Both the position numbers and the translations under genes were made by a program. A stretch of 64,000 nucleotides of DNA, taken from NCBI RefSeq assembly GCF_026151205.1, contig NC_087083.1:5558460-5622459 (forward strand), written 5' to 3'. Under the pieces are notes generated by a model. The model had not been told where the DNA came from, ran no database searches, and saw nothing but the letters and a program-made list of their open reading frames with translations. Shown here in pieces: positions 1 to 52,000 of the stretch. How positions within the stretch are numbered: position 1 is the stretch's first letter; every line of letters starts with the position of its first letter. Source of the stretch: Bolinopsis microptera (lineage: Eukaryota; Ctenophora; Tentaculata; Lobata; Bolinopsidae).

Positions 1-842
1 GAGATTCCTGCGAATAATGGGTACTGAGATTTAACATTTTTGTCCTCCACGGCAGAAGGTATGCCCCCCTCGCTGCTCCTTCTCTTTTTCTTGTTCAAGA
101 TCATAGAGCACACTGATAGGGATTGTTCTTGGTTTTGGACTTCTGCTGCTGCCTCCACACTTACACGTTGTTTTCTTGTACAGGTGGATTTTGGGATTTT
201 AAATATTTGATTGGGAGAACGAGGTTCTGGTTTTAAAGAAAGTCTCATCGGAGATTTGGAATCTTTTCTCTTGGATGGCTGAGGGCTATTGGGGCTTTTA
301 ACTTTGACTGGGGTTGCAGGCTTTTCTTTTGAAACTGTATTTTTTCTTTTGGGCGGAGTCAAAGGAACATCAGGAGCCAGGGAAGCTTGTTTATTTTGCT
401 TCTTGGATTTTGTATTTGTTGCATTGTTGAGACGCAACACAAACTCATCTGTTCCTGGATCAGTGCTGGACTGCCTTCTTCCCACCTCATAGACTAAACC
501 ATCAGGTGTTACTTTCGTTACTTCTTCAGAATCAATGCTCTTGTCAAGTCTGCTTCTCTTACTTTTCCTAGAACTTATTTGTTGTTTACTTTCTGTTTCT
601 TGTTTCACTTTCTTTGGTAAATTATCCGGATCTTGCATTGGTTGTTTCCTCCTTTTTGCTGCTTTGGGTGTGTTGCTATTTGTAAAGCCAGTCTTTCCTG
701 GTGACTTGGTTGTTGGAGTTTCATTTTCCTTGTCCGATTTTTTGGGCGTTTTTGTTTTGATTAATTCCACAGCAGTATGTTCTTTGTCTTGTGCTACGTT
801 ACATTGCCTTTGCAACCGTGGCCGTCTTCTCAAGGTTACCAT
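1..842 (-). CDS. Basic Lys/Ser/Pro-rich nuclear-type protein, first ~280 codons, cut by window edge
   Basis: One uninterrupted minus-strand frame runs from ATG at 842-840 to the window edge (about 280 codons, no stop). It begins MVTLRRRPRLQRQ. I do not recognise the family. It is strongly basic and low in hydrophobic residues, with repeated S/T-P-x-K/R sites of the cyclin-dependent-kinase type (TPKK, SPGK, TPKAAKRRK, TPPKRK, TPVK, SPMR) and several lysine/arginine clusters that could serve as nuclear localisation signals (AAKRRK, KKKRR). No membrane segment or cysteine cluster is visible. The start codon follows a possible splice acceptor (ATTTATCTCAG at about 850), so the true start could lie in an upstream exon. 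A chromatin or cell-cycle role is inference from composition only. Confidence 0.6.
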   Translation of the reverse strand, partial: MVTLRRRPRLQRQCNVAQDKEHTAVELIKTKTPKKSDKENETPTTKSPGKTGFTNSNTPKAAKRRKQPMQDPDNLPKKVKQETESKQQISSRKSKRSRLDKSIDSEEVTKVTPDGLVYEVGRRQSSTDPGTDEFVLRLNNATNTKSKKQNKQASLAPDVPLTPPKRKNTVSKEKPATPVKVKSPNSPQPSKRKDSKSPMRLSLKPEPRSPNQIFKIPKSTCTRKQRVSVEAAAEVQNQEQSLSVCSMILNKKKRRSSEGGIPSAVEDKNVKSQYPLFAGI

Positions 843-1237
843 CGCCTGATCTGAGATAAATTGATAACACCGCATACCATAAATGTGAAACGATTTAAAA
901 TTATTTATTAATGCTATCAGGATAAGTATAGCTCCTTATATCAACACTAAATTGGAAACAAAATTAGGTTAACCGTTCTATCAAGACAGTGGACTCACAA
1001 AATTATATTCTTATATTCAATTCATGAAAGTCATCTTTGAAACTAAACAAAATTCAATCGATAATATGCAACACTCAAAAACCATATAATACCCGTGCCA
1101 TGCTCATTATATAATATTAAATATACAAAATGTCATGGTATTCTCAAAACAGTCAATAGCTAAGCTTATCTGTAACAGTTTATCTACTAGATCGAAATTT
1201 TAATCTTCTTCCGTGGGATCTAAAGAAGCTAGAATCA
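843..1237. other. Intergenic, no gene seen
   Basis: AT-rich sequence between the start of the basic protein and the stop codon of the PLOD-like gene; both genes lie on the minus strand, so it holds the PLOD-like 3' UTR and the upstream region of the basic-protein gene. I see no convincing exon and no canonical AATAAA for the minus strand. Confidence 0.5.
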
Positions 1238-4200
1238 TTAATTAAGGCTTAATACACTGACATATATCCCAACATTTCTGGATTCAGTAGCGATGAGGTT
1301 AAGCATCTTTTCTCCGGTGTCCTCTATCACGAGTAATGTTCCAGAAGGGAGGTGAGTTTTGCAGGATCTATCCATGAAGTTTATCCCCTGTTGTGGTTTG
1401 GCTTTTATTGGTTGAGTAAAAAAGGTTTAAATGTAGCAGGTCTACTTAATAACTAAGGTGACAGTGTCTGTAGCTCTTCAGATCTGGTTAATTATTACAA
1501 TTAGCTATTTAAATAGTCATATTTTATGATAATCTACAATATGGTATCTGTATTATCCGTGTTATCTGCATTTCCACGAAGGTAATTATTAAACATTACC
1601 TGATTAAGGTAATTACTAAACATTACCTGATTAAGGTATTTACTAAACATTACCTGATTAAGACTGTCAGTCCAGAACCAGATCACATGAAAAGCTCGCA
1701 GACCTTTCTTCTGTCCACGTTTCAGGTAGAATTCTGTGTTATCGTTCGGCTCCTGTATAAACAGGACCATGTCTTCGTGTGGGATATCAAATGTAGTCTC
1801 TGGGATGGAATGCTTCATTAAGATTTTAAATATTATATGATGTTTCTGCAGTCCCACATAGATTGAAAAGGTGAAAAAGCTCAAACACAAATAAAGTTGC
1901 TGCAAAGATATCTATATAATATCTGACATAGCTATAATGGATCCTGGTGGACGAGGAATAGGAATTGATGTGTGGACAATCTACAAATTATCAAATACGT
2001 ATAAACAAATAAGAGGATCAACTAACCAATGTTAAACAACATTTTGATATAAGGAACAACACTTTTGGAGATAACACCCTCAACAATCAGTTGATAACGT
2101 AGTTCCATAACCAGTAACGTTTGCACTCGGGAAGTTGAGGTGTTTGCCCACGAGTAGGATGAGAAAGCCCTCAAGAATGCTTTGCAATACACCTCTGAAC
2201 ATATTGATTTGCCTCAAAATTGTGCATGGTGAAATTTTGAAATAGTTTTAAACCATACAACTACATATAATTACATAATATAAATCTTTTCTTAATTGAT
2301 ATTTCCAACAGAAATTGACAATTGTCAGCACGATAAAGCTAAAGGTTATTCTTGCTAGATCAATTTCTTATTAAAAACATCTATCGTACCTACGCTAAAT
2401 GTAATACAGTAAAACCCCGATTTACCGCAGAGTTTGGGAGAAAGGAAACAACCACGGTAAATCGGGGTTTGCAGTAAATCGGGGGGGGGGGGGGGGGGGG
2501 GGGGGTGGTAAATCGGGGTTTTACTACTTAATTACAAATCCTAACATCTCCCTATCTTACCAGTAAACAAAGGCAACACAAGCGCATCTTCAGAGCATCC
2601 TCCAATCACCTCCTCAACTGGCAGCACATTGAATGCTACAGGTTTATTCAGAGTAAATTCCACCCAGGAATGCCAGTTGGTCGCTGCAGCGTATAAGTCT
2701 GAGTTTGGTAACGGTAGAGTGGAGTCTGGTGGTGTCATATCCTGCGGAGGGGTGATATTTTAAACAGTGAATTAGGTGATACTCATGAGGTTACTTATAG
2801 GCTATAATTAGTTACTTAATAAGTTACACTTTGTTGTTTACATATATATTTTGGTTTATTTTTCATATATAATTGTATAATTACATGTTTATAATTGCTG
2901 CGTTAAACTCATCAGAAGCATTGCCAGCTGACTGATACTGAATATTACAAACACAATTCCCTTTAAACAAACAAATTCTACATTAAAATCCCTTAAAGCA
3001 ACAACAAAAAGTCCCACATCACACCTCTACTACACGATATATCTCACTGTATAAAGCGCACAGTTGAGGGTGGTTACCAGCCACATTAGGGTGGTTTTGT
3101 TTCTGTAGTTAGCACACATTGCCATGTCTGTGTCACTGTACCATAGTTATTATAAATAATGAAGGGAAGTCATTCATTAAAAGAGAAGTTATTAATATAC
3201 TCTGAAACTTTAGTAAGAATTTCCCGTAATATTAGCCATGGCCATAAGTATTTCACTGACCTTTATAAATCATGTTATTGCTCATTGTAAATATTTTGGT
3301 CTGATGTAAATGTAATACATTGTCATAAAATTATTTGAATTTTGAAATTATAAACATAATTAATCATCAGTACAAGTACAAGTACAATAGCTTGCTAAGT
3401 ATCTTTCTTACCTGTCACTGTATTTCTCATGTCCTTGATAATCAGGGAGGGCATCTGACCGAGTCAGGTACATAAGTTTGATATATGGTACAACAAATAA
3501 CCCCCAGGCGCCACTGAAAGTGAGTTATTATAAGTTGGACAATCGAAAACAAGTAATTTAACAACTGATTCAACAATTTTACTTTTAATATGAAGTCTTC
3601 TGTAATCTGTATAGAGTTCTAGAAACATAAAATATAACTGATACGATTCAGAAGCTTTTTAAAATTATACAATAAGTAAAACCACACCAAGATTTAGATT
3701 TAACTGATTAGGAACAGATCGAATGTAATGATAGCTGATGAAACTCACTCGATAATTTCAAAGTAGTCAGGTGAGCGCCTATACCATCCTCCCTCAGTAA
3801 TATCACCCCAAAAGTTTGAGCGCTCTCTTCCAAAAGTAACAGGTGCTGTTATGACGGATTTGTTAAATTGGACCAAGTGAGAGATTATGTTGTTTCGAAG
3901 GAGGGCCACCTGAAGGAATTTATGAGTTGATATATACACAGTAAAACCAAGATTTACTGTGTAGTTTAGGGAAAGGGAAATAGTGCAGTAAATCGGGATT
4001 TTTTAACTTTTGAATCCCGTCGGATTACATGGTTTGTCTCCGCACTGTATTGGTTACCAACTAGGGCTTATGGTTCACAAGCACTCAAGTAATTGTAAGG
4101 GGTAATTAGGGGAAGACACAAGCTTTAAGGGACCTTGATATCAAACTAAAAATTTACACTTTTTCAAACATTTTGGGGGTAGGGAAGATGTGTAACAGTA

Positions 4201-21315: not shown

Positions 21316-21783
21316 ATGGTTGTCTTCAGCAAGTACGTCAACGGACAAAGAGGAGCTCAACTACTTCTGGACACAGACGGTTTCCTCTACACCCGGAGAA
21401 AGGATCGAGATACCCCTTCTACCTCTACCTGGAGATGCCAGAAGTACAGAATCAAGAAATGTCCTGCTCATGTAATCCTTGACCATGGAGATCAGTCCTT
21501 GGCCAGCGGTGCCAAACCTCATTCCCACGACCCTGACAACTTAGTAGCTGAGAAAGCAGAGTTCAGAGCAGAATTGAAGCGTAAAGCTGCCGACCAACAC
21601 CTCTCAGCAACACAAAACCTCCTCGCCGAAGCCCTATCTACATGCCCACCCGAAATCAACGTGGAACTACCAAAACTAGAGTCCCTCGCGAGAATTGTCC
21701 AAAGATCACGAGCAACAAAGTCCGGATCTGCCAACCTCCAAATCCTCGTCCAAGAGACGGAGGAAAACGAGCTCGAACCTTGA
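21316..21783 (+). CDS. FLYWCH-type zinc-finger protein, ~155 aa
   Basis: Single-exon frame from the ATG at 21316 (FSKYVNGQRG follows at once) to TGA at 21781-21783. Residues about 3-60 fit the FLYWCH zinc finger: F-x-N-GQRG, L-x-x-D-GFLYTRR, S-TWRC, KKCPAHVI, then H-x-H (PHSHD). These supply the C2H2 ligands. The rest is charged and probably helical (AEFRAELKRKAAD), with no second finger. FLYWCH modules are DNA-binding and in many invertebrates come from MULE-type transposons. A MULE transposase relic lies at 57615-57800, but no transposase is joined to this frame. In-frame sequence extends upstream to 21226; I prefer 21316 because homology begins there. It may be a domesticated gene or a transposon remnant. 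Confidence 0.6.
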   Translation: MVVFSKYVNGQRGAQLLLDTDGFLYTRRKDRDTPSTSTWRCQKYRIKKCPAHVILDHGDQSLASGAKPHSHDPDNLVAEKAEFRAELKRKAADQHLSATQNLLAEALSTCPPEINVELPKLESLARIVQRSRATKSGSANLQILVQETEENELEP

Positions 21784-24990: not shown

Positions 24991-27900
24991 TTTTGATGTG
25001 TGTTAGCATTGTCTTGTCCCTACGTTAAAGGTACCTAAGCCTTCACTAATTGTCAGAGTTAGGAGTACCAATAGGAGCTTATTATAACTTTATTACTTCA
25101 ATAATAATTGGAAATCGCTGTATTCCCCATTAAAAACTTCCTAAAATACTGATTATTATGAGATCTTCAAAAATGCGGATAATTATGAGTTCTGAAACGG
25201 AACGCCCATTTTGTCCAATTGAAGTAAATCTTACTGCATAGGGACAAAGACAGTTTACTGCTTTTGAAGCAATCGGCGTTCACTTGGTGGTAAATATATT
25301 AGCGGAATGGTCAGTGGTCAGCTGGCGAATGAGCAGAGCCAATGATCAGTCTTAATACAGCATTTCAATATTAGGGACGGTCATTTTAAAATACGATTTC
25401 AGTCGATAGCAAGTGGATGCAGCAAATCTAAAACGATAAAATGTGATTTATCGGTTTTTAATGTGCGCCGACCAAAAATTTTCGGCGCAGCTGTGAAATA
25501 ATTACCATGGCGGTGTGCAACAATGTCACTACACAACTCACCACTGCACTTCATTGAGACATTTCAATTAAGCCATGGGTTAAGTTTTACAATGTACCTG
25601 TTCCTCGTTTTTCATCATTGACAAGGTCCTTTCAGTGGCATAATTAGCATAGGTGACACTTATATAATAGATCCAGTATGATGCTGATGGTACTGTTGCA
25701 TTGGTGGCACTAATAAACCCAGTATGATGCTGATGGTACCTAAGATGAGAAGTACGGACTCGTTTAGGGGGAAAAGTACGTACTTGTACCCAACTTTGAA
25801 AAGTTCGACTCATACGACGTACGATACAGATAGAATTTTTTTGTTTTTGAATTATTATCATCGGGGCCGTCGTAAAATGTAATTGTTTGCCGATGTTAGA
25901 GAAAATATACCGTTCGCGAACAAATTAAACACACAATTCTTAGGTCAGGCAAGCATTTAAAAGTAAAACAAAAATTCTAAAAAATTACTAGACAATTTAC
26001 TTATTTAAACAGCTTGTTTCTCTTAAAGTAAAACTTTAAGTTAATCGACGATTGGAATATATAGAAACGCAAGTTTTTGAAAACGCTCAATATTAGTCCG
26101 TAACATGCGATTTAGAACTCTTCCATCGATTTCCAGAAGGAGAACTTTTCAGTAGAATTGAAAAGTACGTACGATACGAGTAAATTGAAAAGTTCGACTC
26201 ATTCGTACTTCTCATCTTAGGATGGTACTGTTGCATGTTTGATGTATTCATGACCGCTTTATGGCAAAACGGTGATATTTTGCTAGAGGTGTCATACGTT
26301 TTAGGAAAATAAGAGTCATAATAAAAAAGTTTTGCCAATAACTCGACTTACTCGACTTAGGGCGGCTTTTTCCAAATCTGTCTATCCAGCATGAGTTTGT
26401 TCATCTCCTTGCTGTCGTCAAGCCCCGTGTCCCTCCGCCAATAAGTGACGTCAATTTGAATTAGGATAATCCCTTTTTTGATCCATTTGGCGATTTGCCA
26501 AGTTGTCCTTGCAAAATTTTGGTAAATTGTCATCGACTCAACAAGTTTTCACAAATTTCTACAATTAATGGACACTGCTTTAGTTTTACAATCATTGCAA
26601 CTGCAATGCTTCATTGTTACATTACTCAATCTTAGGCACACTGTTTGTATGACATCGACATCATTTTATCTGTTTTGCCCAGTTGGAACGTGTTATTTGT
26701 TATTAATACTATGGTCACAGACTCACGTGTTATTATTGGGTTAATTCTGTGAGAATGACGAAATAGCACGGGAATATTTAAAAAATAAACTTGGCTACAT
26801 TCCATGATAGTTAGTATATGTAGATAATACGCGACTACATTTATATAACCGGGCAGTTAATTCAGGGAGCCCACTAGGTTCAGCTAATAAACCCACAATT
26901 TTATTACTGAAACGCACGAGTGACGATGCTCTCATACTCTGCGGCCCAATATGCACTTTACTTTCGTTTCCTTCCCAGTCCATAATGTAGCGTTATAAAT
27001 CACATCCGTTATATTTACGTGGGTTCTAGCGCAGTTCAATGCTCGGCAACTAGTGGTGTAAGAATAATATGGATTAGTTACCGCTGAGGAACCAGACTGC
27101 AGACGACCATTTCGCCGGTAGCAATATATTAATATTATGTAGGTAAACTGATTTGTGTTGTATATTATATACGCGTATATGATCGTGTCCTCAATAGAAG
27201 TACAATTCGTATGATTTGTAATTTTGTTAAGGCAGTTACTAAACGAGTGTGAGGGTGGCTGGAAGGAGGGTACAACATTAAACTATCTCTTTTAAAATTA
27301 GTGATTTGTTTAGTGATTTGTTTCTTGTTTTAAAGTCAAACCGACGCCCGACGTTATAGTTTGCGAATATATTCAGCTTTCGTTGCTAATTTTCTAGTTG
27401 AACTATTCACAACCAGTGAGACATACTTCATACTCGGATCTACTTTATTTCTTAGTTCCTCGCACCCCGTGACCCGTACTATAACAAGATAAGATAAGGC
27501 TCGTGCTGACAGCTCTAACTCTATAAGTTGACAACAGCCTCATTGAGTAGGCACGTGCCTCACCATGCTGTAGCAGGGTTGAAGGAAGCTGTGCAGCGCC
27601 GAGCTGTCGATTAGCAACAACCCTCTTAACTACCCCTCTTGAATAATCCAGGCGATTTAAGATGAGTTGGAGCTCAAATCGTTGGTTTATTCAAGACAAG
27701 GCAAGCTGGCCCGGGTTTACCCCCGTTATTGTGTACCGAGGCTGATGTAATACAATGCAGCTCTCGTCTACCTGGACTGAGCTGGATAGCTATGCTGTCA
27801 AAGCACATGTTCTCAGCCTATCCAGGTGCTGGGCCCAGGCTCACGTGACTTCAACTAAGCGACACGTGACCTCACGAAGTCCCTGCTAACCAGAGTTAGA

Positions 27901-28089: not shown

Positions 28090-28460
28090 ACTGCTCATTG
28101 GTTGCCGGGCAACATGGATTTGGCTAGGCAACCAATGAGAGTCAATAGATCACGAATACTGAGTGACCATTGGTCAGCCCATTAGAGCTCGAGGTGTTCT
28201 AAGCGATCCGATTGGTCAGTCCGTTATCTACATGCGCTGCCATTGGTCCAACTGTGCTCAAGGAAGCAAGCAGCTCACTGCTGTATGCTCATGCACCGTT
28301 CCTCGATTTCTATTGGCTGCGCATCCGAGTTCTGACCGCTCATTGGCCAGTCCCGGGCCACGTGTTCAGCTCATTCGATGCTGCACTGAGTTGCACGTGT
28401 AGCTGCGCAGCCAATGGGAACAAAGAGCAAGGAGATGCACGACTGTCATTGGCTAGATTC
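28090..28460. promoter_or_regulatory. CCAAT-box array (nine NF-Y-type sites)
   Basis: Nine CCAAT/ATTGG pentamers in 356 bp: 28097, 28132, 28169, 28211, 28242, 28312, 28342, 28411 and 28448. Start-to-start gaps are 35, 37, 42, 31, 70, 30, 69 and 37 bp, close to one or two steps of 35 bp. Seven read ATTGG and two CCAAT on the plus strand. Most have the extended NF-Y context (ATTGGYY, CCAATGR). The block is GC- and CpG-richer than its surroundings and has CACGTG at about 28361 and 28395. It precedes candidate exons at 28575-28749. TATA is not evident. Confidence 0.65.
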
Positions 28461-28574
28461 ATGCAGCAAGCATCTGGGACAGGCAGAGAGGGGTAAGAGG
28501 GGTTACCTCAGTTCTCAGTGAGCAGTTGTGGTTTGAGGATCTCTGGAGCTGAAGAGACGGACAAGCTGGTGGAG

Positions 28575-28749
28575 ATGATCAGCAGCGGGGATCTCAATCG
28601 TCCAGCTCAGGTGATAACACTTCGCCAGCTTTTCGTCTAAAACTCCGAATATTTAACTGATAAACCGTACAACAAATATAAATAATACCCCAACAACAAC
28701 CTCAAACTAATGATTATTATTTCAGAAATCGATTAAAGACGAGGTATCT
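28575..28749 (+). CDS. Two tentative first coding exons below the CCAAT array
   Basis: ATG at 28575 opens MISSGDLNRPAQ and ends at CAG|GTGATA (28610). A 24-nt microexon, 28726-28749, follows a TTTCAG acceptor and reads KSIKDEVS before GTAAGT. Both are phase 0 and the joined frame is open (upstream frame EETDKLVE is also open). No family match and no third exon identified. Not obviously part of the adhesion GPCR, since it lacks a signal peptide and the next recognised exon needs a different phase. Confidence 0.3.
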
Positions 28750-30520: not shown

Positions 30521-33500
30521 AAATAGAAACTTTGATGATTAAAAACTGCGATATCACAGAGCTTGAGGCAAAAGGAACCGTCTTTCTCGAGAGCAACGCA
30601 GCTGATAAAAAGATATCCTGCGGCCTGACTAGTCCCGGAGAATGGATAACTCAGACAGTCGAACTCACTCTCGAAAAAGTTAACGATTCCACTGAAAAGA
30701 CTATTTGCAAGACGGATCCGGATGACGGATTCAGCTGCATCGGCAAAGCAGCAGGAATTGCATCCGTTACTGAAAGTACGGATGGTGTTTCGATGACTGC
30801 CACTCTGGATGACACTGTGCTTACCTCTACTGTCGCCTACCGTTGCTCCGTTGAAGTCGGGGAAAACGAAGACGAGAAAGCAACCGACACCAAACTGATC
30901 TATGTCCAGAAAATACGTAAGTTTCGCAGCTAAAACAATCTCTTTTTTTATCAGCGCGTTATTATGAAATGATTAATGTGGATGTCAATTAAATGGCTGG
31001 TTAAAACTAAGATGCATGTAGGAAATTACTTTAATAATTTCTTTTAAATTACTTAAAAAAGAATATTACTAGTGTTTAAACATGATGGATCGTTAAGGAC
31101 ATCTTAGAAGAGATGATTGATTACATAATTCTACAGGTGTAAAATATCGGAATGACAACCTAGACGAATACCAAAAGATGACTACGGATGACGAGTTAGA
31201 AGTATCAGTCTACGGAGATGACGCCTATGCTCTGCAACCTGCAGTCTCCAACTGTAAACTAAAACAGAACAATGTAGATGCAGGCACTGGGGTTTTCATT
31301 TCTTCAAAATGCACAGTAAGTTGAATGAACTGGAACAGAAAGATGAATTTACACTTAACTTCCAAATGCTAATTTGTTTATTTTGAGCTTTTTAATTGCA
31401 CTTACAGTTACATACGATATGTGTTACACGATAATTGGTCTTTAGTAAAAGGCTATGGTCACTCACAGACTGACTTTATTCAGATCCAGACGCTCACAAT
31501 TACGGGTAAAGATTTGAAACTGGTTTGTGATCTACGGTTTAAGGACAGCGAGGTTACTGATGGCGGAGTAGTCACTTATGAATTACCTAAAGACACTACC
31601 TTAACAGTCACTGGTAAGTTATTTATATCTGTATATAGCAGGTTTTATCTTTTCAGAGTATCAGCAGTATGTTCTAAAAAGTTAAAAGCCAGATTTGATA
31701 TATTGTCACAACTAGTGAATTGTGTGTTGCTAAAATTAAGTGACATGGAATGATAATCTCGCCATGGAATGATATCGGGCTCTCATTATGTGCTAATCGT
31801 ATATGGTTATATGTTAATTTAAATTATGCATGACTATATGCAAGCGTCGAGATTTTGAAACGAATTGTTTCAGCGGTGTGTGGTGCGGGACAATTCGAAC
31901 AGTTACAGGGATGTGTAGATTGCAGCAGTAACAACGGATATAGGGCTCTAACTATGTCACAGTTTGGAAATTGCCGGATGTGCCCATCAGGAGAGGAACC
32001 AAATGATACTAAAAATGGTTGTAAAACTTGTGGATCAGGAGTAAGTAAAACTTGTTGAGATCCTTTCTAACTATGTTTCCAAATATTTGTATTAAATGAC
32101 ATTTTACGTGTATCGGAGGAGTTATTTTGAAAACTGATTAACATATGAAAATCTAAGTGTATTTCAAATCAATAAACTCATTTTTTTTTCAGTTCAAATC
32201 CACCTCAGACACCAGATGCATTGCATGTGATGCCGGAACAATTCTCGTCGGTACCACCTGCGAGCCCTGTCCTGCTGGAGAGCACCAAGTTAATTCAGGG
32301 CAGACCAAGTGTGACGCGTGTCCTGCAGGAGAATACTCTACTGTCCCAGGCTCCAAAACCTGCACTCTGTGTCCTTCCGGAACTATCCCGACAGAGGGTG
32401 CGAAGATAATTTGCACTCCCTGTGGAGCAGGAGAGAAATCTAACGAAGATCGGACTGCTTGTGAGACTTGTGATGCTGGTAAATATTCTGTTCCGGGCTC
32501 ATCTGAGTGCTCTGATTGTCCTGCCGGAACTACCTCTGTTGCTGGGGGAATATGCACGAAGTGTCCAAAAGGCAAGTTCAACAGTAACGGCGGAGAATGT
32601 GATCAATGTGGAAGTGGCTCTTACTCGGCTTTTGAGGGCTCAACATTCTGCCTTACGTGTCAAGGGTTAGTAATAACACACATTTTCATTCACTTGTGGG
32701 TTCAGGAAATATCATGCCTATTGAAAATGTATAATTCATTAATTTGTCCGAAATTAAACATGTTGAGGCGGGAATTTTTGTTGACATTTGACCATCTATA
32801 TCTAATATTCATGTATGGTTGTCTGACCAACTGTTGAGGTCTTGATAATGATTTTACTACAGGCACTTACTAATAAGTCAACAATACTTCAGGGAAATTT
32901 CTAACGAACAAGACAGCTGTGAAGTGTGTGAAGCAGGAACGAAGTATTATGAAGGCAACTGTGTCACGTGTGAAAAAGGAGAAGTTTCCGAAGCTGGCAG
33001 TGCAACCTGTAATCTCTGTCCTCCCGGAAGATTCAAAGGTAATTAACTCTGAGCGTTCAACTATTCATATATTTCCAATAGCAATTTGTCTTCTTAAGTA
33101 AAATGAAACTTTAAAAAACTAATCGAAGAAAACTTCCAGACAGTGTATCCACGTGCAAGCTATGTCCAAAGGGAAAAAAACAACCTGTTGGCGGTCAGGA
33201 GGAGTGTATCCTATGTGACGTCCAAAGAGGAGAGTTTCAAACACAAGAGGGTTCAACCTACTGTAAGACCACCACACCTGGGCACCAGCTAAATCTGGAG
33301 AGCAATACAGGTATGGATATTTATAAAGTATAAACCTATCGACCTAATATTTGGTCAGCCCATTTGTTAAAAAAATGCTTTTATTTTATATGAAAACCCA
33401 TGATTTGTAAGTCCTCTGTAGTAATGCATTAAGGTAACAATTAACAATATCAATAATAATAATCACACCTCAGAGGACGAAGTACCGTGCGAGAAGAACT

Positions 33501-38846: not shown

Positions 38847-39445
38847 GCCGACAAGGACTTCACAGTTATTGATTAAATGATTAATTAGCTTTCGATTAAG
38901 TAATTAGTTAACAGATGACAAAAGATTGATGATGGATGGTACTAGCCAGAGACCGTTTAATTACGTGCGAGTGAGCGTTAACATCAAATGACAATGAATG
39001 GGAATTTTAATATTGATCGGGTGATTACGATTTTTTGATCACAATATTTTGATTAATTTAATTTCAGAAACTAAGAAAAAATGTAGATTTGTGTTTTTTG
39101 TAATTTGGGTACAACCTTTTAGAATGTAGTAATAATAGTTTGTAGATCTCAGTTTTTAGTTGCAGTAAGTGATTTTTTAATAAGTTATTTTGATTTAGAA
39201 TCATTTTAATGTTGTTTTATACTTTTTTTAAATAGCATTGTTACCGATATGTGAATAGTTGAAAAATGTCAATTTTATTTTTTTCAGTCTCAGCGATTTG
39301 AGTCTTTTAACTTTGTGAAAAAATGAAACATTGCTTCGAGCAATCATAAAAGGAAGTCTTAGCAGCAAAATCAGATTTATACAGTAATCAGTATAAACTA
39401 TACTCATTCCAAATGGTATAAATAGATTTTTATTTAGCTGAACAT
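38847..39445 (+). other. Adhesion GPCR 3' UTR / intergenic
   Basis: AT-rich, non-coding, follows the TGA at 38844-38846. No canonical AATAAA recognised. Confidence 0.45.
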
Positions 39446-39448
39446 CCT

Positions 39449-40123
39449 ACACATGTTCCCAATAACTTCTTCCTACAAATGTTCCCAATAACTTCTTCCT
39501 TCACATGTTCCCAATACCTTCTTCCTACACATGTTCCCAATAACTTCTTCCTACACATGTTCCCAATAACTTCTTCCTACACATGTTCCCAATAACTTCT
39601 TCCTACAAATGTTCCCGATAACTTCTTTCTTCATATGTTCCCAATACCTTCTTCCTACACATGTTCCCAATAACTTCTTCCTACACATGTTCCCAATAAC
39701 TTCTTCCTACAAATGTTCCCAATAAATTCTTCCTACACATGTTCCAAAAAATTCTTCCAGCACATGTTCCCAATAACTTCTTTCAACACATGTTCCAAAT
39801 AACTTCTTCCAACACATGTTCCCAATATATTATTTCTACACATGTTCCAAAAAACCTTTTCCTACACATGTTCCCAGTATATTATTTCTACGCATGTTCC
39901 CAGTCACTTCTTCCTACACATGTTCCCAATAACTTCTTCCTACACATGTTCCCAAAAACTTTTTCCAACACATGTTCCCAATATATCATTTCTACACATG
40001 TTCCCAAAAACCTTTTCCAACACATGTTCCCAATATATTAGTTCTACACATGTTCCCAAAAACCTTTTCCTACAAATGTTCCCAATATATTATTTCTACA
40101 CATGTTCCCAGTCACTTCTTCCT
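39449..40123. repeat. 26-bp minisatellite, about 26 copies
   Basis: Unit ACATGTTCCCAATAACTTCT plus TCCTAC. Later copies vary to ATATATTATTTCTAC and AAAAACCTTTTCC. It gives Cys/Met/Phe-rich open frames (MFPITSSYTCSQ) in more than one register, which are repeat artefacts. Lies downstream of the adhesion GPCR and CNRIP1 (convergent 3' ends). Confidence 0.9.
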
Positions 40124-40316
40124 ATAACAATCCTAAGTTTTTCTCAGGATGTCTTGACGGAAGATTTTGTTTTTCATCTTGTTGTCTTGTTACTGTCAAG
40201 AGGACCGCCTTCTTTAGCTGGGGTAGAAGGTGTTAGCAAGATAAGCATAATATAAAATAAACATCAATCGTTCATGTGATTTTTAACAAACATTAATCGT
40301 TTATCTTTGCTTAATT

Positions 40317-49000: not shown

Positions 49001-52000
49001 GTAAAACTTCTGATCCATTTGTAGCTCAGGTGATGTGCCCCAAAACCTCACGCCTGAGTGACAGTGGGCCTTATCGATCATGAGCAGCAAATCACAATGA
49101 CTTTGGGCCTCAGAGACAAGGGCATTCGTACTCTTGGCTTAAATTGGTTCTTCGTTAGTATCATCGATCAGGTTTCTAACTTCTATATCATCTGCCTGTC
49201 CAGTGTCCATCCGTCTCTTTGGGATTCATTATTACTTCAAGTTCAGCCATTTCGCTTCTGTTCAACTGTAGGCGTAATGAGGGACTTCAGTCCAGCAATA
49301 AAGTCAATATCTCTAGATTTAGCAATATCTGGTTTCGCTACTTTTAAGGTAATTGTGTTCAGCAAGCAAGTTTGTAAGTTTTCAGTCGTACTGCCCCAAA
49401 GTATTGGCCCCCAGGGCACCAGTAATGCTGGAGCACTGGTAATGCACATGGTAATTATGCTGATTTTTTGCTTAACATAGCTCATTTTTAAGTTCCTTTT
49501 TCAGCAGTCTTCCCTATCATACTGGCAAAAAACAGATTCACCTCCTTTATCTTTAGGGGGGGGTGTCATGTCCGTCTATGTCCGCCTATGTCCTGTCCTT
49601 TTTGGATTCTATGAGACAACGGACGTGTTTTTTGGGACATTGGCGGACACGGACGGACATTGGCGGACTCGGACGGACATTGGCGGACTCGGACGGACAT
49701 TGGCGGACCCGGACGGACATTGGCGGACTTGGACGGACATTGGTGGACATTAGCGGACATTGGTGGACATTAGCGGACAAACATTTTGAGGACTGAAGAG
49801 TACTGAGGAGGATGGCTGAGGAGGATGGCTGAGGAGGATGGCTGAGGAGGATGACTGAGAGGGAGAAGAAGGATCAGGAAGACCCAGGAGCCAGGAGGAG
49901 GAGGAGGAGGAGGACCCAGAAGGAGGACATAGGAGGAGGAGGAGGATAACTGAGGAGGAGGAGGACTCAGGAGGAGGACTGAGGAGGACTGAGAAAGAGG
50001 AGGACTGAGGAGGATGGCTGAGGAGGATGACTGAGAGGGAGGAGGAGGAGGAAGAGGACTGAGGAGGAGGAGGAGAAGGACTGAGGAGGAGAAGGAGGAC
50101 CCAGGAGGAGGAGGACCCAGGAGGAGGAAGACCCAGGAGGAGGACCCAGGAAAAGGCCCCAGGAGGAGGAGGAGGACTGGGGAGGAGGAGAACTGTTGAG
50201 GACTGATGAGGAGGACTGAGGACGAGGAGGAGGAGTAGGAGGAGGACTGAGGAGGGGAGGAGGAAGAGGACTGGGGAGGATCAGGAAGACCCAGGAGGAC
50301 CCAGGAGGAGAACCCAGGAGGAGGAGGAGGACTGAGGAGGATGGATGAGGAGGATGGCTGGGGAGGATGGCTGAGGAGGATGACTGAGGAGGATGACTGA
50401 GAGGGAGGAGGAGGACTCTGGAGGAGGACTCAGGAGGAAGAGGAGGAGGAGGACGGGAGGAGGACTCAGGAGGAGGACCCAAGAGGAGGAGGACTGAGGA
50501 CCGAGGAGGAAGAGGAGGAGGAGGACCCAGGAGGAGGAGGACTGAGGAGGATGGCTGAGGAGGATGACTGAGAGGGAAGAGGAGGAGGAGGAGGAGGACT
50601 CAGGAGGAGGAGGAGGAGGAGGACTGAGGAGGACTGAGAAGGAGGAGGACTGAGGAGGATGGCTGAGGAGGATGGCTGGGGAGGATGGCTGAGGAGGATG
50701 ACTGAGGAGGATGACTGAGAGGGAGGAGGAGGAGGACTCAGGAGGAGGACTCAGGAGGAAGAGGAGGAGGAGGACTCAGGAGGAGGACTTAGGAGAAATG
50801 AGAAGGAGGAGGAGGAGGAGGAGGAGGACTGAATAGGAGGAGGAGAAGGAGGGGGACTGGGAGAGGACTTGGGAGGAGGAGGACTGATGAGAAGGATGAA
50901 GAGGAGGACCCAGGAGGAGGAGGACTGAGGACTGAGGAGGAAGAGGAGGAGGATGAAGAGGAGGAGGAGGACCCAGGAGGAGGAGGACTGAGGAGGATGG
51001 CTGAGGAGGATGACTGAGAGGGAAGAGGAGGAGGAGGAGGAGGAGGAGGACTCAGGAGGAGGAGGAGGAGGACTGAGGAGGACTGAGAAGAAGGACTGAG
51101 GAGGAGGAGGAGGAGGACTGAATAGGAGGAGGAGGATGGGGACTGGGAGAGGACTGAGGAGGAGGATGGAGGACTGAGGAGAAGGAGGACTGAGGACTGA
51201 GGAGGAAGAGGAGGAGGAGGACCCAGGAGGAGGACCCAGGAGGAGGACTTAGGAGAAATGAGAAGGAGGACTGAGGAGAACTGAGGAGGAGGAGGAGAAG
51301 GAGGAGGACTGAATAGGAGGAGGAGAAGGAGGGGGACTGGGAGAGGACTGGGGAGGAGGAGGACTGATGAGAAGGATGAAGAGGAGGACCCAGGAGGAGG
51401 AGGACTCAGGAGGAGGACTGAGGAGGATGGCTGAGGAGGATGACTGAGAGGGAAGAGGAGGAGGAGGAGGACTCAGGAGGAGGAGGAGGAGGAGGACTGA
51501 GGAGGACTGAGAAGAAGGAGGACTGAGGAGGAGGAGGAGGACTGAATAGGAGGAGGATGGGGACTGGGAGAGGACTGAGGAGGAGGATGGAGGACTGAGG
51601 AGAAGGATGAGGAGGAGGACTGAGGAGGACTGAGGAGGAAGAGGAGGAGGAGGACCCAGGAGGAGGACCCAGGAGGAGGACTCAGGAGGAGGAGGAGGAC
51701 TGGGGAGGAGGAGGACTGTTGAGGACTGATGAGGAGGACTGAGGACGAGGAGGAGGAGTAGGAGGAGGACTGAGGAGGGGAGGAGGAAGAGGACTGAGGA
51801 AGATCAGGAAGACCCAGGAGGAGGAGGAAGAGTAGGAGGAGGAAGCATCTAAATGTTATTTCCATTTTTGTCCGTTTTTGTCCATTTTTGTCCGCTCTAT
51901 TTTTTGTCCGTTTTGAAAATATAGGGTACCGAACGGACAAAAAACATGATCCCCCTATAACAGCAAAAATTGAACATTTTATTTAGCAATTTAGGTGTCC

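Follow-up and report, generated by a model that had tools for sequence, protein, structure and literature searches.

At positions 28097-28452 of the window analysed here, a stretch of 64,000 bp from the ctenophore Bolinopsis microptera (C12:5558460-5622459 of the 264.65-Mb, 232-contig assembly that was used for the genome searches), nine CCAAT boxes follow one another on mixed strands. Exact matches to CCAAT or its complement ATTGG start at 28132 and 28411 on the plus strand and at 28097, 28169, 28211, 28242, 28312, 28342 and 28448 on the minus strand, with gaps of 35, 37, 42, 31, 70, 30, 69 and 37 bp; the boxes and gaps claimed in the earlier note are thus confirmed at all nine positions. Two of the boxes are part of composite elements with a CACGTG E-box: CACGTG-N11-CCAAT on the plus strand at 28394-28415 (E-box at 28394, CCAAT at 28411, 17 bp from start to start), and CACGTG-N12-CCAAT on the minus strand at 28342-28364 (E-box at 28359, CCAAT at 28342, 18 bp). 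Two further CACGTG matches lie 5' of the ladder at 27842-27868, with no CCAAT nearby. At the 5' end of the ladder there is a palindrome, at 28101-28113, which we take to be an RFX-type X-box; it ends 18 bp before the second CCAAT. In its strict form this motif is the sole match in the 64-kb window, with two in 101 kb elsewhere, while a looser form has one match in the window and ten in the same 101 kb. Neither the E-boxes, at a spacing like that of human USF/NF-Y sites, nor the RFX-like X-box had been part of the first description of the locus.

The first confident plus-strand exon (30521-30916, score 36.3) lies 2.07 kb downstream of the ladder and opens a plus-strand gene that extends to 38828, its 3' end being approximate. 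The gene contains Ephrin_rec_like/TNFR_ELAPOR repeats and a GPS motif, followed by hydrophobic exons (Pfam: Ephrin_rec_like 5.8e-17, TNFR_ELAPOR1 1.7e-14, GPS 8.6e-8); there is no 7TM Pfam match in it, and it probably encodes an adhesion GPCR. Closer to the ladder we found a weak candidate first coding exon, from ATG to GT donor, at 28575-28610 (plus strand, score 6.4 as 28519-28610) and a weak candidate exon of 24 nt at 28726-28749 (plus strand, score 2.5). A score of 6.4 is at the level of noise, the best noise score on the minus strand being 6.2 (22-28.4 kb), and the phase of the two candidates does not run directly into the exon at 30521. Because only such weak candidate exons lie between 28.5 and 30.5 kb, the gene is a plausible, yet unproven, target of the ladder. 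It had been proposed that the ladder is a strong and perhaps bidirectional promoter. A strong promoter is plausible, but the second direction finds no support: the minus strand has no confident exon between 22 and 28.4 kb, and no Pfam match. A six-frame Pfam scan of 20.5-30.4 kb returned only a FLYWCH zinc-finger domain on the plus strand near 21.3 kb (21334-21528, within an ORF, E=2.6e-10), which is possibly transposon-derived.

We suggest that the ladder is likely to be a gene-regulatory module, most likely a proximal promoter or promoter-near enhancer of this plus-strand gene, with room for up to nine NF-Y trimers. The same DNA could also act as a distal enhancer, a chromatin barrier or a loop anchor, in which NF-Y keeps the DNA open while transcription starts elsewhere. 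This would fit the lack of any confident exon less than 2 kb from the ladder in either direction, with the candidate exon no better than noise, and it would fit the promoter-enhancer loops reported in the ctenophore Mnemiopsis (PMC12221973, in part). Against this, the ladder sits upstream of a plus-strand gene, and many promoters with multiple CCAAT boxes are described in the passages of PMC4982600, so that we consider a distal or architectural role less likely and keep to a module that serves the plus-strand gene.

Nine CCAAT boxes and their flanks

The NF-Y consensus, with its flanks, is RRCCAATSR. Eight of the nine boxes in the ladder have this full form, compared with 8 of the 141 CCAATs in the rest of the window; in 13 arbitrary 8-kb genomic loci (101 kb without N), the fraction is 11 of 174. 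The only box in the ladder that departs from the consensus is the one at 28312 (CCAATA). At the background rate, the Poisson probability of at least eight RRCCAATSR sites in 356 bp is 1.2e-16.

The bare pentamer tells a different story. The window as a whole contains 150 CCAATs, slightly below the number in shuffles (168), and in Markov simulations (4 x 30, 64 kb each) the densest 356-bp cluster held 3-6. However, the densest 356 bp of the real window holds 11 CCAATs, inside a 26-bp minisatellite near 39.5 kb, and the Poisson expectation for the whole genome is about five (overlapping) 356-bp positions with at least nine pentamers; the bare pentamer count is therefore not unique. The minisatellite, with 26 copies at 39445-40124, holds 16 CCAATs in total, none of them with full NF-Y flanks. 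The permutation check proposed earlier thus comes out in two ways, in that the flanked sites are exceptional while the count alone is not. The expected genome-wide count is what a chance cluster of a common pentamer could be founded on; since the flanks, the exclusion spacing and the E-box spacing (both discussed below) are all independent of the count, we give this explanation next to no credence. The ladder is real and very unusual: ordinary in kind, extreme in number.

Two further rungs may have decayed. One candidate, with two mismatches, lies on the minus strand at 28277-28281, midway in the 70-bp gap; the other, with one mismatch, lies on the same strand at 28373-28377, in the 69-bp gap. 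Both are weak, and a chance match is not unlikely. As relics they would make an eleven-rung ladder, a reading to which we attach little weight.

The genome encodes one subunit of the factor expected to read these sites. NF-YA was found as a full-domain Pfam match (E=5.9e-24), and phmmer matched it to the NF-YA chain 4awl_A (E=2.9e-23), which we take to be the human one; the ctenophore DNA-binding domain closely resembles its human counterpart. NF-YA-like sequence is present at three loci (C7:5786332, C11:8466648 and C4:10257949), the domain being divided between two matches in the case of C4 and C11, and paralogues may be present. A literature search for texts joining ctenophore and NF-Y, with the former as a singular whole word so that plural-only use would escape, returned nothing. 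With eight of nine flanks in the consensus form, gaps that are never below 24 bp and an NF-YA gene in the genome, the predicted NF-Y array is well supported.

Spacing, repeat character and other arrays

If boxes are placed at random between the two end boxes, the probability that no gap is below 30 bp is 5e-4. The structure-derived minimum between adjacent NF-Y trimers is 24 bp, and paired CCAAT boxes in human promoters lie about 31 bp from each other (32 bp in the inverted pair of TOP2B), with spacing maxima near 31, 41, 52 and 63 bp, according to the passages of PMC4982600. With its smallest gap of 30 bp the ladder respects the NF-Y minimum; it does not follow the human helical series. The best period of the ladder is 35 bp (P=0.009), but after allowing for a 24-bp exclusion the probability is only 0.033, which makes a strict 35-bp clock weak. 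Helical phasing is absent: R is 0.10 at 10.5 bp, and the maximum between 10 and 11 bp, 0.49 at 10.0, has P=0.51. What had been described as a near-regular ladder of about 35 bp is, then, better described by an exclusion rule, with neither a firm clock nor a helical phase. The ladder shares with human multi-CCAAT NF-Y promoters, as far as the passages of PMC4982600 describe them, the consensus flanks, a spacing of at least 24 bp and the mixed orientations; it differs in having nine boxes, in lacking the helical series and in belonging to a ctenophore.

The earlier note had further stated that the sequence between the boxes is not repeated, which is nearly right. TRF (score >=50) finds no array at the ladder, but three pairs of rungs share 13-17 nt: the first two rungs, flanks included, form a perfect inverted repeat of 13 bp (arms at 28094-28106 and 28127-28139), rungs 3 and 4 have 16 nt in common (88%), and rungs 6 and 8 have 17 nt in common, inverted (88%). 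These pairs may be local duplications. Outside the 9-mer the flanks of the rungs are slightly more alike than expected (0.289 vs 0.251, P=0.0035). A tandem duplication that produced the whole ladder was considered and finds no support, given that TRF detects no array and that the likeness of the flanks is only slight. The 421-bp ladder region matches the genome once, at its own position, in a search that skips simple repeats and common words and that is subject to assembly gaps.

Searches of the genome for three flanked boxes in the same orientation gave 676 + 980 RRCCAATSR triplets, or 138 + 90 in the all-G form; among the matches listed, nearly all of the former are, by eye, minisatellites of many unrelated units, and most of the latter are minisatellites as well. 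Mixed-orientation triplets are far fewer (1 + 2, 2 + 2 and 1 + 1 in three classes, from seven distinct loci), about 0.19 being expected from the background density for the three classes together, and the present ladder was found in two of the three. As to the other six mixed loci, the one on C10 is tandem by eye, and short TRF arrays are present at C12:7973757 and on C6. In each of the six triplet searches a control with the reversed motif gave more matches than the motif itself (35 + 33, 35 + 56 and 63 + 48 in the mixed classes, where this tells against enrichment as such), so that triplet counts alone do not prove a class of ladders; a permuted ACCAT control, applied to two of the three mixed classes, gave 0 + 1 and 0 + 0 vs 1 + 2 and 2 + 2 for the motif.

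Among the matches listed, the ladder most like that of the window is in the C9:12658410 region, where seven boxes in the same orientation (local positions 2818-3052) have gaps of 31, 32, 32, 32, 49 and 36 bp. Five of the seven have full flanks, TRF reports no array, and two CACGTG boxes lie at 15 and 18 bp. The probability of a minimum gap of at least 31 bp is 6e-5, a figure that includes sites chosen by the search itself and omits an eighth box; that box, at local position 2808, has the other orientation, lies 10 bp from the first and lacks NF-Y flanks. A six-frame Pfam scan of this region found no match. The same holds for the C12:3927360 region (minus frames of the first half, plus frames of the second half), which carries a GC-rich ladder of three boxes with gaps of 30 and 32 bp (local positions 2863-2929) and, some 290 bp away, a tandem array of seven boxes spaced by 31/34 bp (3217-3413). 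In the C12:7973757 region four CCAATs (local positions 1728-1828) are exactly 32 bp apart, partly within a 32-bp tandem repeat. AGG/TCC-rich arrays of 2-3 kb are present in the window at 49798-51843 and at one further locus (588-3797), and both lie near a 20-bp repeat that bears CCAAT (49635-49769 in the window, 3855-4004 at the other locus).

The ladder could, in principle, be an old minisatellite that grew from a unit of about 35 bp with a CCAAT in it, then drifted and is now functionless. CCAAT minisatellites do account for most of the same-strand triplets listed, and the rung pairs that share 13-17 nt, the excess likeness of the flanks and two gaps near 2 x 35 bp are what such an origin would leave behind. 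Drift, however, should hit the 9-mer and the spacers alike, whereas eight of nine 9-mers are intact and the spacers are mostly unrelated; moreover, two of the rungs have the opposite orientation, no array is seen by TRF, and the geometry of the E-boxes is left unexplained. We therefore regard a decayed minisatellite as improbable.

E-boxes at set distances from CCAAT

Two E-boxes placed at random in the ladder would both fit a distance of 17 or 18 bp with P ~0.003. In most human NF-YB/USF1 regions the E-box is followed by a CCAAT at a distance of 17 or 18 bp, as given in PMC7046753 (in part), and for USF1/2 and MITF the E-box and CCAAT are separated by 10-12 bp, as given in part of PMC7793273, a range into which the N11 and N12 spacers of the ladder fall. 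The ladder thus shares with human USF1/2-NF-Y sites, to the extent that these two sources describe them, the CACGTG 5' of CCAAT, the distance of 17/18 bp and the separation of 10-12 bp; unlike those sites, it embeds its two composites among further boxes, and its bHLH partner is putative. Most bHLH proteins of ctenophores could not be assigned to families (PMC5064789, in part). A literature search on composites of CCAAT and E-box in cnidarian species returned no paper.

Across the genome, CACGTG-N{0,30}-RRCCAATGR has 242 + 245 matches, against 38 + 34 for the reversed control. In the first 100 matches listed (C1 to part of C4), reduced to 77 by removing pairs with spacers 80% alike, 24 are at 17 bp (P=1.7e-17) and 9 at 18 bp. 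With harsher spacer filters the share at 17 bp among the matches listed is 8 of 51 (65%, P=2e-4) or 7 of 42 (60%, P=4e-4), where the filters also discard unrelated short spacers and remote relatives from transposons may escape them. The opposite order, RRCCAATGR-N{0,30}-CACGTG, has 304 + 294 matches (control 37 + 35), and here 29 of the 65 pairs that remain from the first 100 listed after the 80% filter are at 24 bp and 11 at 23 bp; after the 60% filter, 14 of 32 of those listed are at 24 bp (P=4e-13) and none at 23. At least eight CCAATs, common to both sets of listed matches, are flanked by E-boxes on both sides, not all of them at 17 and 24 bp. In a small random sample of the genome, with 19 pairs within 60 bp, two were at 17/18 and one at -23/-24. 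The E-box 23/24 bp 3' of CCAAT is thus seen in Bolinopsis; the passages of PMC7046753 and PMC7793273 mention none for human sites.

As the sum of 17 and 24 is 41 bp, the two distances allow alternating lattices of E-boxes and CCAATs to be built. A dispersed minisatellite of 41 bp has just this form, each unit pairing a single NF-Y site with a single CACGTG, at distances of 17 and 24 bp: at C2:10944000-10946800 there are 14 E-box/CCAAT pairs at +17 and 15 at -24, and at C9:521000-523500 there are 16 at each. A search for heterogeneous triplets gave 4 + 2 matches (control 59 + 56), three of the six being from this 41-bp family; it was also this search that led to the seven-box ladder of the C9:12658410 region. 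In the human LTR12/ERV9 elements, the U3 region has its NF-Y sites in 5-17 repeat units, each about 41 nt long, according to part of PMC11853044; the unit length is that of the Bolinopsis minisatellite, presumably by convergence. The LTR12 U3 enhancer and the ladder have in common a row of many NF-Y sites, but LTR12, as described in that source, belongs to a repeat family and is made of tandem units of about 41 nt, while the ladder is a single match with no clear tandem repeat. That the ladder is the promoter of a mobile element resembling LTR12/ERV9 seems very improbable to us: a dispersed 41-bp repeat with NF-Y site and E-box does exist in this genome, but the ladder region, simple repeats, common words and assembly gaps aside, matches the genome only once, and by eye it has no unit in common with the 41-bp family.

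A putative NF-Y control module

Returning to the view that the ladder is a regulatory module of the plus-strand gene, we think a strong control element probable and propose the following mechanism from its architecture. Up to nine NF-Y trimers would bind side by side; with gaps of at least 30 bp, neighbouring trimers would not clash. NF-Y, which has a histone-like fold, could thereby keep about 350 bp, roughly the space of two nucleosomes, free of nucleosomes. In the 3' half of the ladder, two trimers would help to hold a bHLH factor, such as USF or MITF, on the E-boxes 17/18 bp 5' of their boxes, as described for human cells, fixing two bHLH dimers at the preferred distance. The plus-strand gene as the target and the direction of transcription are likewise inferred.

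A precedent for such recruitment is the Txnip promoter, where NF-Y on two CCAAT boxes is required to recruit the bHLH pair Mondo/MLX (PMC2791861, in part). Its two CCAATs, one of them inverted, lie with E-box-type elements, and NF-Y recruits a bHLH partner, as we propose, on a larger scale, for the ladder; it differs in that it is a vertebrate gene with two boxes only, in which the elements are ChoREs bound by Mondo/MLX, as described in the same source.

At the 5' end, an RFX factor may use the X-box. Modules of RFX and NF-Y in MHC class II are mentioned in PMC7793273 (in part). In such X-Y modules the X-box and a CCAAT in inverted orientation are a constant distance apart. As in the ladder, the X-box of MHC class II lies beside a CCAAT, but the MHC modules keep a fixed distance, while here the X-box overlaps the first CCAAT by one base.

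Taken together with the lattices, it is possible, if somewhat short of an even chance, that the E-box 23/24 bp 3' of CCAAT is a second fixed geometry, that lattices are found among minisatellites as well as in unique modules, and that multi-site NF-Y ladders are a type of promoter or enhancer of this lineage. The spacing rule for E-box and NF-Y, for its part, looks common to ctenophore and human. Since regulatory sequence seldom aligns between distant animal phyla, a shared regulatory grammar is hard to show; the spacing may be a hint of a wiring rule of great age. If the exact spacing is indeed common to ctenophores and humans, it would suggest that a physical contact between NF-Y and a bHLH partner has constrained DNA since the root of the animals, a rule that can be put to the test with ctenophore chromatin data. 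The nine-box ladder is a natural extreme, on which one can ask how many NF-Y trimers are usable and whether minimum spacing or helical phase sets their arrangement.
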